The notes beneath the pieces were generated by a model. That model had not been told where the DNA came from and did not search any database. It was given only the letters and a program-made list of their open reading frames with translations. Shown piece by piece: positions 20,663 to 62,765 of a DNA stretch of 64,000 bases (its first letter is position 1; each line of letters begins with the position of its first letter). The position numbers were made by a program, and so were the translations under genes. The stretch is from Acidobacteriota bacterium. Lineage in GTDB: Bacteria > Acidobacteriota > Blastocatellia > Chloracidobacteriales > Chloracidobacteriaceae. The stretch lies in the NCBI GenBank assembly GCA_016208495.1, contig JACQXX010000070.1, forward strand, positions 186,001-250,000. The letters are read 5' to 3'.

Positions 20663-20741
20663 ACTTGGTGTTTGGTGTTTGGTGCCTGGTGTTTGGTGTT
20701 TCTTCGAAAGTATTGATTTCTAACCACTAACCACTAACCAC
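20663..20741. repeat. TTGGTGT and CACTAAC heptamer arrays
   Basis: About five units of TTGGTGT (one reading TGCCTGG) at 20665-20700, then a conserved segment TTTCTTCGAAAGTATTGATT shared, in inverted form, with 22.1 kb and 62.7 kb, then CCACTAA units at about 20721-20741 that touch the stop codon of the upstream thioredoxin gene. Confidence 0.85.
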
Positions 20742-22028
20742 TCAACTCTTTTGGGCCAGTGCCTGTTGAATGGCAGGTTCAAGCGTTGCACCCCGAACGT
20801 TCACCGCTGCAATTTTTCCATCTCGGCCCAAAAGCAGGGTGAACGGGATGCTTCGGACCTGATATTGGGTTGAAATCGTTCCCTCCCAACCTTTGCCTTC
20901 ATAAATTTGGCGCCAGGGCATTTTATTTTCTTTGATAAATTGGGTCAGGGCTGTTTGGGCATTGGCATTATCCAGGGAAATGCCGAGGACCTCAAACCCT
21001 TGTTTTTGATACTTGTTGTAAGCGGCAATGACATTTGGGAGTTCCGCCCGACAGGGGGCACACCAGGTTGCCCAAAAATCAAGCAGGACAACCTTGCCTT
21101 TGAATTGATCAAGTGAAACCGGGTTGCCAGCCAGATCAGTGGCGTTGATCGGAATCGGAGCGGTACCGGGTTTATATTTCGAATCTTGAAGTGCCTGAAC
21201 CGCGGCAACTTGTTGGGCTCCAGCCGGTGGCGTAAATGAAAACGTTTGTTCCGTCGTTGCAGCGCCTGGTTGAAGCCGGGTATAGGTCTCGGTCATCTGA
21301 CCCGCGACCCGGCCCTGAACTGAGTGTTCAAACATGACCTGGCGGAGCAGGCGATCAGACTCGGCAATCACAAAGGTGAGTTTTGATTCACCTTCCGCCG
21401 AAGATTGAACGGCAATAATGGTTTTGGCCGGAACCCCGTCAATCGTCGTGGATGGGCCAAAGGAGAGTGACTTCATTTGTTCCGACAGCCCCTGCATCAA
21501 ATCCAGTCCGGCCAGCACAAACGGGGATGGCCCGACGTTGCCTTCGCCTGAAAGTTGATTGGCAAACATGATTGCCGCCAGGACACCATTCCCACCTTCC
21601 ATTTTTGGTGTTGCTTCTTTGATAAACTGGTTTGGGGTATCACCTTTCATTCCGTACAGAAACTTCCCATCGCCAACCACCTGGGTTTCAGACTCTTTCC
21701 CTTTAATCTTGACCACCGCCTGATCTGGCCGACGCAGCAAGATTTCTGAAGTAAATGAATTTCGAACCGTTGGCAGGTCGGCGTTCGTCGAATCAGTCAC
21801 ATCAGTTGTGATGGTAACTGAAAATGACCCGAGTTTTTGATACGCCGTCGTCATTTCACCAAACAATTGTTTGGCTTTCGGGTCAATGCCAGGTGTGGTA
21901 GCGGATGAGTCAGATTCGGCTGGCGCAGATCCGTTCTGGTTATTTTTCTGAAACCAGATAACAGCAAGCGCAACGGCGGTGAGTAGCAAAATGATGATTG
22001 CCATTCGCTGTGTTTTGTGATTTGTCAT
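20742..22028 (-). CDS. DUF2092-like / TlpA thioredoxin fusion protein, copy 2
   Basis: A 428-residue paralogue of the preceding thioredoxin fusion. Start at ATG 22028 is backed by GGAG about eight bases upstream; a TTG four codons earlier is less likely. An N-terminal hydrophobic helix (MAIIILLLTAVALAVIWFQK) serves as uncleaved anchor or signal. The middle (about 55-270) is LolA/DUF2092-like (LFGEMTTAYQKLGSFSVTIT, FVIAESDRLLRQVMFEH), and the C-terminus is TlpA-like with DFWATWCAPCRAELPN and RSIPFTLLLG. The two genes differ throughout but keep the same architecture and end, so they arose by an old tandem duplication. The stop TGA abuts GTTAGTG repeat DNA. Confidence 0.88.
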   Translation of the reverse strand: MTNHKTQRMAIIILLLTAVALAVIWFQKNNQNGSAPAESDSSATTPGIDPKAKQLFGEMTTAYQKLGSFSVTITTDVTDSTNADLPTVRNSFTSEILLRRPDQAVVKIKGKESETQVVGDGKFLYGMKGDTPNQFIKEATPKMEGGNGVLAAIMFANQLSGEGNVGPSPFVLAGLDLMQGLSEQMKSLSFGPSTTIDGVPAKTIIAVQSSAEGESKLTFVIAESDRLLRQVMFEHSVQGRVAGQMTETYTRLQPGAATTEQTFSFTPPAGAQQVAAVQALQDSKYKPGTAPIPINATDLAGNPVSLDQFKGKVVLLDFWATWCAPCRAELPNVIAAYNKYQKQGFEVLGISLDNANAQTALTQFIKENKMPWRQIYEGKGWEGTISTQYQVRSIPFTLLLGRDGKIAAVNVRGATLEPAIQQALAQKS

Positions 22029-22050
22029 TGATCGCTCCAAGGAAAAGGCG

Positions 22051-22220
22051 GAATGAAGAATGAAGAATGAAGAATGTGGTTAGTGGTTAGTGGTTAGTGG
22101 TTAGAAATCAATACTTTCGAAGAAGAACCAGGAACCAGGAGCCAAAAACTAAAAAAACAAAAACCAGGAACTAACCACTAACCACTAGCCACTCACCACT
22201 TTCTTCATTCGGCTTCATTC
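22051..22220. repeat. Nested mirrored heptamer element (GAATGAA / GTTAGTG)
   Basis: Order: GAATGAA array (22051-22075), GTTAGTG array (22078-22103), shared segment GAAATCAATACTTTCGAAG, GAACCAG units (about 22126-22145), then inverted CACTAAC array (22170-22200) and inverted ATTCTTC-type units (22201-22220). The outer and inner families mirror each other across the centre. The right-hand half is translated as the C-terminus of the debranching enzyme. Confidence 0.9.
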
Positions 22221-24321
22221 CCCATACTGGCGGGCAATTTCCATAAATGTCTTCGACCAGACACCGGTAAATTTCAGCCACGCTCCATGCCTGGGCAATA
22301 CAACCCCGAGGTGTGTGTGGGATGTCGCCGTCAAATATTTCTGAAATGCTGCCAATCCCGGCTTCTTTGAGGTGGGTTTCAAATCCCGAGAGCCACTGGC
22401 GGGCCTGGGGAGCCGCTTCAGGTTGATTCGGGTGATTTCGAACCCAGGCGGAAACAAACCCTCCCATCAGAAATGGCCAAACTGTTCCTTGATGATAGGC
22501 GGCATCCCGTTTTCGTTGATCGCCTTCATAGCGACCAGTGTAGCCAGCTTCTTTGGGGCCCAATGAACGGAGCCCAACGGGGGTCAAGAGTTCCCGCTCA
22601 ACCTGAGTCAGGGCCTGAAGGCAACGTTCGGCATCATCAAAAATTGGGTAGGGCAAACTCATGGCATAGACTTGATTGGGGCGCAGTGCCGGGTCAGATT
22701 GGTGATCGGTGACCACATCAAACAGACATTTGCGCGACTGATTCCAGAACTTTTCCGCAAAGCTGGCTTTGGCCTGGCTGGCGATAGCCGTGTATTTCGC
22801 CGCTGTTTCCGTATCGCCAAGGGCTTCGGCAATCGAAGCCGCCACTCGCAGGCCGTTATACCAGAGGGCCTGGATTTCAACCGGCTTTCCAATCCGAGGG
22901 GTGACGACCCAATCGCCGATTTTGGCATCCATCCAGGTGAGTTGGACGCCGTCCTGACCGCCATAGAGCAACCCGTCCTCAGTCGCATGAATGTTGTAAT
23001 TGGTACCCGCAAGGTGATTCCGGAAAATGTTTTGCAGCGTCGGATAGAGTTCCTCGGCGACAAACGTGAGGTCGTTGGTGTAGTCCAGATAGCGTCCAAC
23101 GGCATAGACAAACCAGAGCGTCCCGTCAATGGTGTTGTATTCCGGCACGGCATCTCCATCCTGGAACCGATTCGGAATGAGTCCATTTTGTTCAACTTCG
23201 GCAAAAGCTTTCAAAATATTGCGGGCTGTCGCATATCGCCCGGTCACCAGGGTCAATCCGGTCAACGAAATAAAGGTGTCGCGTCCCCAATCGGTAAACC
23301 ACGGATACCCGGCGATGACTGTCTCTAACTGATTTCCTCGCGACACAATAAAAGGCGAAGTTGCTGTAGCCAGCGGGCGAATCAGAGGGTCAGCCGAGAG
23401 GGTTGCGGCTCGCTGAGCACGGTTTTCCGGCATTGAAGCGTCGAGTGGGCGGACTTTGGCGTCGGCTTGAACGCCTGATGAGAGCACCGAAGTTGGAACT
23501 CCGAAGCGGCGCACCATTTCCTGGTCATGCAAACTTTCCCACTCTTGAATCTGATGCGGATGGGTTGAGGCAATAACCACCGCTGGGCCAAAGTTGAGAT
23601 GAAAACTAAAGACCAGCGGTGAATATCCGTCTTCTTGAAAATCGCTCCCCCGAGCTAATTCCTCTCGATATTGGAACCGGCGATACCAAAAACCTTCAAG
23701 CGAGACCTCGGTGGCGTTGTGGGCCAGATACAGCGCCGGCATGTCAGAGTAGGGGGTGAGGGTGATGAGTCCTTGATCAACCCCAACCTTTTTTTCGAGC
23801 TGAGGATTCTCAAAGGTCAGGCTGTGATAGTCACGAAAGGCCAGAATCGGGCGTAATTCAAGCACCACCGGCACATCCGGGGGAGACGTCAGCCGATATT
23901 CAACCACCGTGGTGTTTTCCCCCTGCACCATCCACAGACAGGCTTCGATCTCAACCTCACCCAGCCGATAGGTCCAGGTTGGCCAGGGCGTGTTTCGAAA
24001 CCGCACCAGGTATTTGTAGCCGGCTGGATAGACTGTATCCGGGTACTGATTGGTCGAGGTTTCATAGCGTTTTCCATCAATCTTGACTGATGATTCAAAC
24101 GCATTGAGCAGGAGTTTTCGAACCACTGGAGGTTTGGTGGCTGCAAATAACAAACCGTGGTAGCGCCGGGTTCGCACTCTTGCCAGCGTACCTGATGCAA
24201 ACCCGCCAATGCCGTTGGTGTCGAGCCACTCCTGGGAAGATGCCGCCTTGAAATCCTGGAGTACTTCGCGCTCAACAACAATAGTTGATGTGTCAATGAT
24301 CGTGGTTTTATAGGAAGCCAT
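22171..24321 (-). CDS. Glycogen debranching enzyme (amylo-alpha-1,6-glucosidase, GH133 type)
   Basis: A 716-residue enzyme with the two-part layout of bacterial amylo-alpha-1,6-glucosidases: an N-terminal beta-sandwich (about 15-290; NGIGGFASGTLARVRTRRYHGLL) and a C-terminal helical barrel carrying the family motifs PWFTDWGRDTFISL, GLIPNRF, YNTIDGTLWFVYA and MDAKIGDWVVTPR. It removes alpha-1,6 branches of glycogen in the cytoplasm. The final residues NEESGEWLVVSG and the stop are encoded entirely by heptamer repeat DNA. The ATG at 24321 (MASYKTTIID) is preferred; the frame extends to 24456 but the extra 45 residues look unrelated to the family. A GH13 enzyme lies at 40.9 kb. Confidence 0.93.
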   Translation of the reverse strand: MASYKTTIIDTSTIVVEREVLQDFKAASSQEWLDTNGIGGFASGTLARVRTRRYHGLLFAATKPPVVRKLLLNAFESSVKIDGKRYETSTNQYPDTVYPAGYKYLVRFRNTPWPTWTYRLGEVEIEACLWMVQGENTTVVEYRLTSPPDVPVVLELRPILAFRDYHSLTFENPQLEKKVGVDQGLITLTPYSDMPALYLAHNATEVSLEGFWYRRFQYREELARGSDFQEDGYSPLVFSFHLNFGPAVVIASTHPHQIQEWESLHDQEMVRRFGVPTSVLSSGVQADAKVRPLDASMPENRAQRAATLSADPLIRPLATATSPFIVSRGNQLETVIAGYPWFTDWGRDTFISLTGLTLVTGRYATARNILKAFAEVEQNGLIPNRFQDGDAVPEYNTIDGTLWFVYAVGRYLDYTNDLTFVAEELYPTLQNIFRNHLAGTNYNIHATEDGLLYGGQDGVQLTWMDAKIGDWVVTPRIGKPVEIQALWYNGLRVAASIAEALGDTETAAKYTAIASQAKASFAEKFWNQSRKCLFDVVTDHQSDPALRPNQVYAMSLPYPIFDDAERCLQALTQVERELLTPVGLRSLGPKEAGYTGRYEGDQRKRDAAYHQGTVWPFLMGGFVSAWVRNHPNQPEAAPQARQWLSGFETHLKEAGIGSISEIFDGDIPHTPRGCIAQAWSVAEIYRCLVEDIYGNCPPVWGMKPNEESGEWLVVSG

Positions 24322-24474
24322 AATGATGATCTCACAGGGAGGGCAGGTGATTGGGATTGGGGAATCGAGGTCTGTGACTGTTGACCGGCAGTCAATTGAA
24401 GCAGAGCCAGCCATCAAGAATGAGGGGCCACAAGCCAGCCCAACCCAAAGAAGCAACCGTGAGGTACCAGATTT

Positions 24475-25844: not shown

Positions 25845-26041
25845 GAATGAAGAATTGCGAATGAAGAATGAAGAAACCAATGAGTGGTGAGTGGCTAGTG
25901 GTTAGTTCTTGGAAGGTGTTGATTTCTAATCACTAATCACTAGCCACTAATCACTAACCACTACTAATCACTAACCACTCACCACTCACCACTACTAATC
26001 ACTCACCACTACTAAGCACATTCTTCATTCTCAATTCTTCA
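25845..26041. repeat. GAATGAA / GTTAGTG mirrored heptamer arrays
   Basis: GAATGAA-type units at 25845-25875, GTGAGTG and GTTAGTG units at about 25881-25906, a short shared centre (GTGTTGATTTCTAA), then a long inverted run of CACTAAC, CACTAAT and CACTCAC units (25927-26015) and ATTCTTC units to 26041. It fills the whole gap between pilT and chrA. Confidence 0.9.
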
Positions 26042-27124: not shown

Positions 27125-27274
27125 ATATGAACTATCCTTAGTTTAATCTGAGGGACTTCCTGTGTGAATTGACCTGGAAGAGCGTTTAGATGGCGTGCAT
27201 CCATAATTTGTCATATTCGCCGGGGTGAAGACAAGTCGCAAGCGTGAGATTGTACTTCGGGCAAAATGACAATC

Positions 27275-27391
27275 TGACCGGGTGACTGAGTGACAAAATG
27301 ACCGGGTGACTGGGTGACAAGGTGACTGGGTGACAAGGTGACCGGGTGACTGGGTAACTAGTCACCCGGTCACCTTGTCACTTTGTAAATC
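27275..27391. repeat. GTGACTGG / GTGACAAG octamer array with 22-bp hairpin
   Basis: About nine octamer units (GTGACTGG, GTGACAAG, TGACCGGG variants) run from 27275 to 27351, then turn into an inverted copy. Arms 27330-27351 and 27360-27381 are a perfect 22-bp inverted repeat with an eight-base loop. The right arm includes the VWA gene stop codon. Confidence 0.9.
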
Positions 27392-35588: not shown

Positions 35589-36017
35589 ATGGGAATGTCA
35601 ACTGGTGGTAGCAGCAGCTACAACTCAGAAATCAACGTGACTCCCTTGGTTGACGTGATGCTGGTCTTGCTGATCATTTTTATGGTGATCACCCCGCTCT
35701 TGTCGGAAGGTGTCAAAGTGAGCCTCCCCGAATCCGAATATGGGAAGGAAGATGAGGATATCACCAAAGATGACTCGGTGGTGGTTTCCGTGGCAGGGGT
35801 TGGCATTGTCTACCTGGGCAAGGAGCCCATCAGTAAAGACAGCCTGGGCGAGAAGTTAAAGGAAAAAATGGCCAAGGCGGCCCGTGATCGCACGTCGCAG
35901 GTGGTCTATGTCCGTGCTGAAAAAACAGTTCCCGTTGGGGAAGTGTATGACGTCATCAAGGCGGCTCAGGACGCAAACGTTCCAAACCTTGGGTTAGTCA
36001 CTGAAAAGAAAAAATAA
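35589..36017 (+). CDS. exbD: ExbD/TolR-family protein, copy 1
   Basis: A 142-residue protein with the ExbD layout: short cytoplasmic tail, one helix with the essential Asp (NVTPLVDVMLVLLIIFMVI), and a periplasmic domain. It follows exbB by three bases, so translation is coupled. It keeps the classical ExbD features VVYVRAEKTVPVGEVYDVIKAA. The highly acidic stretch GKEDEDITKDD after the helix distinguishes it from copies 2 and 3. Confidence 0.93.
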   Translation: MGMSTGGSSSYNSEINVTPLVDVMLVLLIIFMVITPLLSEGVKVSLPESEYGKEDEDITKDDSVVVSVAGVGIVYLGKEPISKDSLGEKLKEKMAKAARDRTSQVVYVRAEKTVPVGEVYDVIKAAQDANVPNLGLVTEKKK

Positions 36018-36071
36018 GCCCTCGTGCTTATCAACCGTGAGAAAAACCACAGATTTGGAGAAGTTTTTGAC

Positions 36072-36102
36072 GGAAGCAACCGACGTTCTGTCGGTTGCTT
36101 CC
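36072..36102 (+). other. Perfect 13-bp hairpin between exbD copies 1 and 2
   Basis: GGAAGCAACCGAC (36072-36084), loop GTTCT, GTCGGTTGCTTCC (36090-36102). The stem is perfect and GC-rich, but it is not followed by a U-run, so attenuation or mRNA protection is more likely than simple termination. It separates the exbB-exbD pair from the duplicated exbD genes. Confidence 0.7.
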
Positions 36103-36173
36103 ACACTGTTCTTGGGATGACCCGGCTTGGGATGACACCTCATGTCAGCACCAAAGGAAGGGAACCGGAACCT

Positions 36174-36620
36174 ATGGGAATGTCAGCATTCGGAAGTAGC
36201 AGTCAGACCAAACCTGACATGAACGTGACCCCGCTCATTGATGTGCTGCTGGTGTTAATCATCATTTTTATGGTGGTCAAGCACAGCGATCCTCAGAAGT
36301 TGGATAGCGACGTGCCGGAAAAAACATCGGAACAAGTCTATGTACTGAGCCACTTCCGTTTGTTTTTTGTTGAGTGCGATGAAAACGGGAAAAACATCAA
36401 ACTCAACAGGATTCCAATGGCCACATCTGAGGAACTTCGGAACCGGCTCAGCACCGAACTGAAAGGGCGATTGCCCGATGATCGAAACACCTTTATCAGT
36501 GCGCCGCGCAATACCAAATATGAGTATGTGGCCAATCTGGTTGACGTCGTTCGTGGCGCGGAACCTGATCCACAGAACAAAACCGTCCGGGTGGGGCTCG
36601 ATCACGAAAACAGAAAATAG
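36174..36620 (+). CDS. exbD: ExbD/TolR-family protein, copy 2
   Basis: A 148-residue ExbD-type protein: one helix with VTPLIDVLLVLIIIFMVV and a periplasmic domain with LFFVECDENGKNIKLNRIPM and ISAPRNTKYEYVANLVDVVR. The ATG at 36174 follows AAGGAAGGGAACCGGAACCT; the frame extends upstream to 36024 through the hairpin, which is unlikely to be translated. By direct alignment 119 of 148 residues are identical to copy 3, differing mostly at the N-terminus and one loop. Multiple ExbD-type subunits may give the motor alternative partners. Confidence 0.9.
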   Translation: MGMSAFGSSSQTKPDMNVTPLIDVLLVLIIIFMVVKHSDPQKLDSDVPEKTSEQVYVLSHFRLFFVECDENGKNIKLNRIPMATSEELRNRLSTELKGRLPDDRNTFISAPRNTKYEYVANLVDVVRGAEPDPQNKTVRVGLDHENRK

Positions 36621-36649
36621 CGGTGAAGTGTTAAGGAGACAGAAACATT

Positions 36650-37096
36650 ATGGCAATGTCATCAACCGAGGGCGGCAGCAATGCCAAACCAAACATTAAC
36701 GTGACTCCATTGATTGACGTCCTGCTGGTGTTGATCATCATCTTCATGGTGGTTAAGCACAGCGATCCACATAAGCTCGACAGCGACGTTCCGGAAAAAA
36801 CACCGGAGACTTTACAGGCACAGCCAAATAACCGGTTGTTCTTTGTTGAGTGTGATGAAAACGGGAAAAACATCAAACTCAACACGCTGCCGATGGCCAC
36901 CACCGAGGAACTTGGCAACCGACTCAAGTCGGAAATGAAGGGCCGCTTACCGGATGACCGGAACGTGTTTATCAGTGCGCCACGCAACACCAAGTATGAA
37001 TATGTGGCCAATCTGGTTGACGTCGTTCGTGGGGCGGAACCTGATCCACAGAACAAAACCGTCCGGGTGGGGCTCGATCACGAAAACAAAAAATAG
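36650..37096 (+). CDS. exbD: ExbD/TolR-family protein, copy 3
   Basis: A 148-residue tandem duplicate of copy 2, 29 bases downstream of it, with AAGGAGACAGAAACATT ahead of the ATG. The helix and periplasmic domain are the same, but residues about 52-60 (TLQAQPNN region against the VYVLSHF region) differ completely. The 3' end of both genes is almost identical at DNA level over about 60 bases, pointing to recent duplication or gene conversion. Confidence 0.9.
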   Translation: MAMSSTEGGSNAKPNINVTPLIDVLLVLIIIFMVVKHSDPHKLDSDVPEKTPETLQAQPNNRLFFVECDENGKNIKLNTLPMATTEELGNRLKSEMKGRLPDDRNVFISAPRNTKYEYVANLVDVVRGAEPDPQNKTVRVGLDHENKK

Positions 37097-40636: not shown

Positions 40637-40880
40637 TATAAGCGCCAGGGGAAGAAAATGTGAGCCTGTTTGAGACACGGAGCTGGGGAGACAAGGAGAC
40701 AAGGAGACAAGGGGACAAGGAGAAAAAATATTCTCCCGCTCCCAACGTCGGGAGGAGGATCTCCTTGTCTCCTTGTCTCCTTGTCCAGATCGGGCTCTGT
40801 TCCTTATCCTGTCACTCAGTCACTTTGTCACCGTGTCACCCAGTCACCTGGTCACCTTATCACCTTGCCACCTTCTCACT
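40637..40880. repeat. GGAGACAA / GTCACC octamer arrays
   Basis: Starts with TATAAGCGCCAGG, the end motif shared with the 49.6 kb element. Array of GGAGACAA at about 40684-40725, centre beginning AGAAAAAATATTCTCCCGCT, inverted CTCCTTGT units at 40761-40787, and then a second family of GTCACC-type octamers (40812-40875) that runs up to the ATG of the GH13 gene. Confidence 0.88.
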
Positions 40881-62312: not shown

Positions 62313-62765
62313 GGAATGAAGAATAAAGTTAGTGGTTAGTGGTTAGGGACTGTAAAAAATCAACTTCCCGTTTTCGTTTGGGAATCAGGCATTTGGATTG
62401 AGCATCCTGAAAGGCTGCAGTTCGAATAGCCGGTGGTTGCTCAGCTACAGGGAGCTACCACCGGGAAACGGCTCGTTCGCCCAATCCCTCCCCGCTTCGC
62501 CCGCGCCCCGTGGGGCGCGGGCAAAGCGGGGAGGAACAAAGGGGTGGCCCTTGTGGGTCCGGTGGTAGGCCCAAAGCGGCCAACCGACCGGCTATCCGAA
62601 CGGCAACGCTTCGCGGTGCACAACCAAAAACCTGAACGTAAAAGGGTGACCACGCTCCCAGGAACTTATTTTTTAACGATCCCTTAGTGGTTAGAAATCA
62701 ATATTTTCGAAGAAGAACCAGGAACCAAGAGCTAACCACTAATCACTCACTAGTTTCTTCATTCC
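62313..62765. repeat. Composite repeat element with nested hairpins
   Basis: GAATGAA units (62313-62325), GTTAGTG units (62332-62345), then TTAGGGACTGTAAAAAATCA. The centre folds as nested stems: outer arms 62420-62432 and 62589-62601, a side hairpin 62430-62443 / 62451-62464, and a 22-bp GC-rich hairpin (62488-62509 with 62512-62533, one mismatch). The right side mirrors with TTTTTTAACGATCCCTTAG, GTTAGAAATCAATATTTTCG, inverted CACTAAC units and ATTCTTC units to 62766. The A-rich ends resemble the edge at 3.92 kb. Confidence 0.88.
62488..62533. other. 22-bp GC-rich hairpin inside the 62.3 kb element
   Basis: CTCCCCGCTT then CGCCCGCGCC(CC) at 62488-62509 pairs with 62512-62533 with one mismatch and a two-base spacer (effective loop larger). 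The stem is almost all G-C and could form a very stable RNA fold or a cruciform. Confidence 0.85.

Follow-up and report, generated by a model that had tools for sequence, protein, structure and literature searches.

The Rickettsia palindromic elements are a case of a small palindromic repeat that has turned into coding sequence. Heptameric repeats are described from Xanthomonas (GGGAATC) and from Nostoc/Anabaena (GGGGA(T/C)T) as G-rich intergenic arrays which are scarce between divergent ORFs and lie no farther than 50 bp from stop codons, the G-rich strand being sense; some overlap the stop, and they often form convergent inverted pairs (PMC4692102). In Coxiella burnetii, QMITE1 and QMITE2 are dispersed palindromic elements, described as MITEs, that overlap the 3' ends of genes, and in one strain QMITE2 encodes the last 33 residues of EnhC (PMC5896051). 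The heptamer TAACTGA of marine Beggiatoaceae contains stop codons and overlaps them; it forms direct repeats that are almost never inverted and lie mostly just upstream of start codons (PMC4679880). In the enterobacteria RU elements sit within ORFs, again a small palindromic repeat becoming coding (PMC2759123).

The locus analyzed here lies in a window of 64,000 nt, the whole stretch of DNA under study, from the draft genome assembly of an Acidobacteriota bacterium. A gene for a GH133-type glycogen debranching enzyme (GDE_N plus GDE_C) was placed at 22171-24321 on the minus strand by Pfam, orthologue homology and the gene caller; the ATG at 24321 is the probable start, the longest ORF reaching the TTG at 24456, and homology to the same-family orthologue runs from query residue 46 onward. 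Both Pfam domains are complete (GDE_N 2-215/219, GDE_C 2-367/367), and the GDE_C match stops at residue 731 of 761. The stop codon TAG occupies 22171-22173, and the final 13 codons, the reverse complement of 22171-22209, are AAT GAA GAA AGT GGT GAG TGG CTA GTG GTT AGT GGT TAG. On the minus strand the 3' end of the gene can be written as CCG-AATGAAG-AAA-GTGGTGA-GTGGCTA-GTGGTTA-GTGGTTAG, giving NEESGEWLVVSG and the stop; in units this is one exact GAATGAA followed by GTGGTGA, GTGGCTA, GTGGTTA, GTGGTTA and G, and TRF reports 22170-22200 as a period-7 repeat with 4.4 copies and 87% matches. Direct reading of 22171-22209 together with TRF thus bears out the first-pass annotation, which had the last 12 residues and the TAG read from heptamer units. 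The preceding codons GGA ATG AAG CCG (22210-22221, residues GMKP) form a further GAATGAA copy, interrupted by two bases, and the repeat-derived tail therefore begins directly after W745. It comprises about 16 residues, GMKPNEESGEWLVVSG, with codons and stop TAG at 22171-22221 on the minus strand, as read directly and as delimited by an orthologue that diverges after PPVW. That the repeat now encodes protein, as was also claimed, holds for the open frame running through it; judging from this frame the tail peptide would be made, and ...PNEESGEWLVVSG is an example of the C-terminal peptide to be expected of it.

The tail of the GH133 protein comes from a palindromic element dispersed through the genome, whose right arm the gene reads inward. 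The element occupies 22051-22221 and has the structure [GAATGAA]n[GTGGTTA]n-AAATCAATACTTTCGAAGAA-spacer-[TAACCAC]n[TTCATTC]n, all parts being given here on the plus strand. A left outer arm of GAATGAA x3.7 (22051-22076, TRF) and a left inner arm of GTGGTTA x4 (22076-22104, TRF) precede the conserved 20-nt core AAATCAATACTTTCGAAGAA (22105-22124, identified by a genome-wide core search) and a spacer of AACCAGG and AACCAAG-type heptamers (22125-22169, direct reading and alignment of 45 copies). The right inner arm consists of CTAACCA/ACTAACC heptamers, GTGGTTA on the gene strand (22170-22200, TRF), and the right outer arm reads TTCTTCATTC-GGC-TTCATTCC (22201-22221, direct reading), that is, one good and one broken GAATGAA on the gene strand. 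The first-pass annotation had overlooked the same units in inverted orientation at 22051-22104, which together with the right arm bracket the core. Its proposal that a repeat was inserted into, or had grown at, the gene end is accordingly right as to a repeat-encoded tail, and has to be amended in that the repeat belongs, as one arm, to a dispersed palindrome and is not a simple repeat expanded in place.

Aligned copies have in common the unit order [GAATGAA]n [GTGGTTA]n core [AACCAAG-like]n [TAACCAC]n [TTCATTC]n, and their outer flanks are unrelated. Both outer arrays, and with them inverted outer arms, were recognisable in 26 of 66 copies, which measure 96-223 nt; the remaining copies are partial. 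Arm lengths inside one copy are weakly correlated (rho 0.30), and arms complement their own partners with p = 0.04. Strong co-evolution of the arms, whether through hairpin-templated copying or through selection for pairing, was considered and set aside because only this weak correlation was found; arm lengths that are nearly independent fit slippage.

Allowing up to 2 mismatches, the 8.4 Mb genome has 168 copies of the core, and the reversed control gave 0. Four copies at up to 3 mismatches lie within the window: besides the one at the GH133 gene, there is a second on the minus strand at 20700-20742, with the core at 20700-20719 and GTGGTTA x3, directly 3' of the stop of a thioredoxin-like gene (20742-22040), a third on the minus strand at 25906-26019, with a degenerate core (3 mismatches) and a long variant GTGGTTA/GTGATTA arm, and a fourth core with 1 mismatch on the plus strand at 62695-62714. 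The 22-mer GTGGTTAGTGGTTAGTGGTTAG, made of GTGGTTA units, occurs 434 times genome-wide (reversed control 0). A 387-kb sample of this genome contained 76 perfect period-7 arrays of at least three copies, where a Markov-1 control had 0. Of the 76, 75 were outside called genes or at a gene edge; the counts rest on this 387 kb of unbiased sequence and 390 kb picked around cores, with genes called by a simple hexamer-based caller of our own. Other periods are near background, with the exception of period 8 (12 arrays in the 387 kb), the second commonest in this genome. Octamer arrays in the window, at 27267-27370 and 40687-40879, are of TGACTGGG, GGAGACAA/TCTCCTTG and GTCACC type, and some of them form inverted pairs as the heptamers do. 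The window also contains, at 36024-37096, two adjacent ExbD/TolR-like genes with the motif NVTPLIDVLLVLIIIFMVV, arranged as a tandem duplication with a period of about 476 nt and 83% matches; a third ExbD-like gene adjoins them at 35589-36017. The sister genome, Blastocatellia bacterium SSF51 (G001), is similar to this one (G000) in its heptamers, with 80 perfect period-7 arrays in 343 kb, and short stretches sampled from 17 further genomes of the class hold few such arrays or none. Outside this genome the GTGGTTA 22-mer was found in G002 and G054 only, and the loci checked there showed no core. An Rfam search with the window element returned no matching family, and for the element family itself there was no match in Rfam and no description in the literature searched.

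Copies of the element lie preferentially at the 3' ends of genes. Just 1 of 53 intergenic cores falls in a divergent gap, though divergent gaps make up 20% of intergenic bases (p = 8e-5), and 16 of the 53 fall in convergent gaps (p = 0.0015); these figures are for 777 kb, half of which was picked around cores, and this affects density but not gap type. Cores stand at a median of 64 nt from a gene 3' end, and in co-directional gaps 30 of 36 are closer to the 3' end; they point both ways about equally with respect to the gene (21:24). In this genome 20 period-7 arrays come within 10 nt of a stop codon, against a null of 9.9 +/- 2.8, and in the sister genome 22 against 9.4 +/- 2.8. Overlap with the stop codon itself is not above random (9 vs 7.1 in this genome and 7 vs 6.9 in the sister), the null being arrays placed at random over non-coding sequence and the final 30 bases of coding sequence. 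Selection for stop replacement was rejected on this ground, and since the overlap is at random expectation the tails look like neutral by-products, neutrality being the simplest reading for the hairpin as well as for the tail.

In roughly ten of 526 called genes several C-terminal codons lie inside element arms, and unrelated proteins consequently share their ends. A LytTR response regulator and an LpxD-like protein both end in RMKNEE, HemC in NEETTNH, a histidine kinase with a receiver domain in QNEESG and a 3-hydroxyacyl-CoA dehydrogenase (3HCDH) in WNEE; further ends of this kind in the genome are GRMKNEESR, QMNEE and the GMKPNEESGEWLVVSG of the GH133 protein. Relatives of the five proteins examined mostly end differently (HemC in LLNELSA, the LytTR regulator in KSRAEN, LpxD in ESED, the dehydrogenase in WNDK), and the WNEE of the dehydrogenase, being close to the WNDK of its orthologue, may be partly ancestral. 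It is conceivable that an acidic peptide, NEE(SG) or MKNEE, recurring on several unrelated proteins acts as a functional tag, for instance in turnover or localisation. We regard this as extremely improbable, because the peptide is fully explained by element sequence and frame: the three frames of the element strand GAATGAAGAAAGTGGTTAG predict the endings E, NEESG and MKKVVSG, each followed by a stop, and MKNEE is predicted where GAATGAA is repeated. The random level of stop-codon overlap also speaks against a tag, as do the quite different tails of the sister genus (TED, QD), in whose genome unrelated genes end in RTED, NQD, QIQD and LKD, all from the unit GGACTGA.

Comparison with homologues places the tail of the GH133 protein in the same light. 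Among about 80 GH133 homologues for which the C-terminus was readable, not one shows NEESGEW, so that the outcome named in advance as counting against a repeat origin, the same tail in relatives without repeats, did not occur; about a dozen further loci yielded no C-terminus and are left out of this count. Tails after AQAWSVAE are 15-67 residues long where measured and vary widely; as they vary even without repeats, variability alone is no proof, and it is the match to the local repeat that counts. The only orthologue of the same family (JAIBAN010000011.1, from the sister genome; 65% identity) shares CLVEDI(Y/H)G-CPPVW with the query, can be aligned up to W745 and then ends in KQIQD. Its stop lies in another heptamer, CAG-GAC-TGA opening an array of GGACTGA with an inverted partner about 70 nt on. 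Both GH133 orthologues therefore end in repeat DNA, and of different repeats. The first-pass annotation expected the family to end immediately ahead of NEES, with varying tails translated from local repeats; this is borne out by the one close orthologue, and on sequence evidence the annotation's interpretation of the tail is supported.

Of 26 orthologous gene pairs, 5 had an array in the 200 nt that follow the gene in both genomes, 7 in this genome only, 4 in the sister only and 10 in neither. With 5 of 26 sites occupied in both against about 4 expected by chance, conserved site occupancy between the genera was rejected. One orthologous gap measures 18 nt in this genome and 162 nt in the sister, the latter with an inverted CATTTGC pair. 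The inverted pairs of GGACTGA arrays in the sister genome surround spacers that look mostly unique to each locus; a common core for that family was looked for and rejected.

At one gene end, PIE-TGA, which is common to both genomes, a GAATGAA array is present in this genome only, where the shared GATTGAATGAAG supplies its first unit. This PIE-TGA-AG end (G000:C70:182510), with the array starting exactly there, is a possible seed site for the birth of an array, and as a single example it suggests that some arrays may start on, or insert at, short resident matches. The same pair speaks for local microsatellite growth, in which a resident GAATGA/TGGTTAG-like sequence at a stop would have expanded by slippage with no insertion of an element; the partly ancestral look of the 3HCDH end and the near independence of copy numbers between arms point the same way. 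Against it stands the fact that one 20-nt core, with its units nested in one order, recurs at about 168 unrelated sites, which local growth could not produce; this makes the explanation unlikely in general, and for the GH133 site it is disfavoured given the core at 22105-22124. As a secondary process, slippage is likely to lengthen the arms of an inserted element.

As transcribed from the GH133 strand (minus), the whole element with its borders (22041-22232) would fold into a very stable hairpin (-74.7 kcal/mol, z -8.3). This stability and the preference for gene 3' ends leave room for a selected 3' UTR or transcription-end hairpin of which the tail is a side effect, an idea compatible with an inserted element and also favoured by strand bias: whatever the unit, the sense strand of the first array 3' of a gene is the G-rich one (42:7 in this genome, 37:5 in the sister), and the G-rich arm comes first in 28 of 29 inverted pairs. 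It should be noted that stop content does not explain the G-richness of the sense strand, because the unit GGGTTCA has no stops. We nevertheless consider selection on the hairpin possible but rather doubtful, since arm pairing within a copy is barely above that between copies, orthologous sites in the sister genus are occupied independently, and promoter avoidance accounts for the position equally well. TTTT outside the hairpins is at background (1/22 and 4/36); without T tracts beside the hairpins above this level, an intrinsic transcription terminator was rejected.

How the element spreads was addressed through its flanks and neighbours. No target-site duplication was found, the mean flank match being 1.35 against 1.65 +/- 0.27 for permuted flanks, and no transposase is linked to it: none of nine Y1_Tnp matches in the genome is near a core, and two of the nine have a heptamer array in the flank, yet far from the gene. 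Spread driven by RAYT was rejected, as no core lies near RAYT-like genes and the four examined have GC-rich repeats of their own. These four RAYT/Y1 transposase loci, with large inverted or direct GC-rich repeats, are candidate REP/REPIN systems apart from the heptamer element.

We propose that a short palindromic element of about 100-220 bp, with nested inverted heptamers (GAATGAA outer, GTGGTTA inner) around a 20-nt core, has moved about the genome, its copies settling or surviving chiefly just 3' of genes while their arms change length by slippage. It presents the same sense strand, GAATGAAGAAAGTGGTTAGTGGTTAG, from both sides. Because a period of 7 rotates the frame, stops arise in every frame of this strand, and a copy landing on or growing over the last codons would thus be tolerated: the old stop would be lost, one to about 16 residues gained (E, NEESG, MKNEE or longer variants) and a new stop supplied. 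The GH133 gene would have undergone such a replacement after W745, and we consider it likely that a dispersed element with a preference for 3' ends rewrote this and other gene ends. A genome-wide stop cassette that rewrites C-termini, with about 1-2% of the proteins of the lineage carrying an element-coded tail and with tail or hairpin affecting the fate of protein or mRNA, is in our judgement a highly speculative extension. The locus provides a clear example from nature of non-coding repeats turned into protein sequence, in which one small element family gives unrelated proteins the same peptide and orthologues show the ends without the element; it offers a direct route to studying the evolution of gene ends and warns annotators that shared C-termini (MKNEE, NEESG) among such proteins do not mean homology.

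With the arrays of Xanthomonas and Nostoc the repeats described here share the intergenic period of 7, scarcity in divergent gaps, closeness to stops, a G-rich sense strand and convergent inverted pairs. They differ in their units, in the nesting of two unit types around a conserved 20-nt core and in belonging to the Acidobacteriota; neither GTGGTTA nor GAATGAA contains three G in a row, so that the G-quadruplex-capable unit (GGGAATC/GGGGANT) is absent, and in the present work the tail peptides were compared with orthologues. Like the QMITEs, the element is a dispersed palindrome at gene 3' ends that supplies C-terminal residues, whereas its arms are tandem heptamers of variable number; of the hallmarks of MITEs it has terminal inverted repeats (26 of 66 copies, the rest partial) and no target-site duplication that could be found. 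The stop-containing heptamers recall TAACTGA of the Beggiatoaceae, which is direct and upstream of starts where the present element is inverted and downstream of genes. The Rickettsia palindromic elements and the RU elements are without heptamer arms and are not confined to C-termini. The case reported here is a combination of these known kinds, joining heptamer arms and a conserved core with the repeated rewriting of C-termini.
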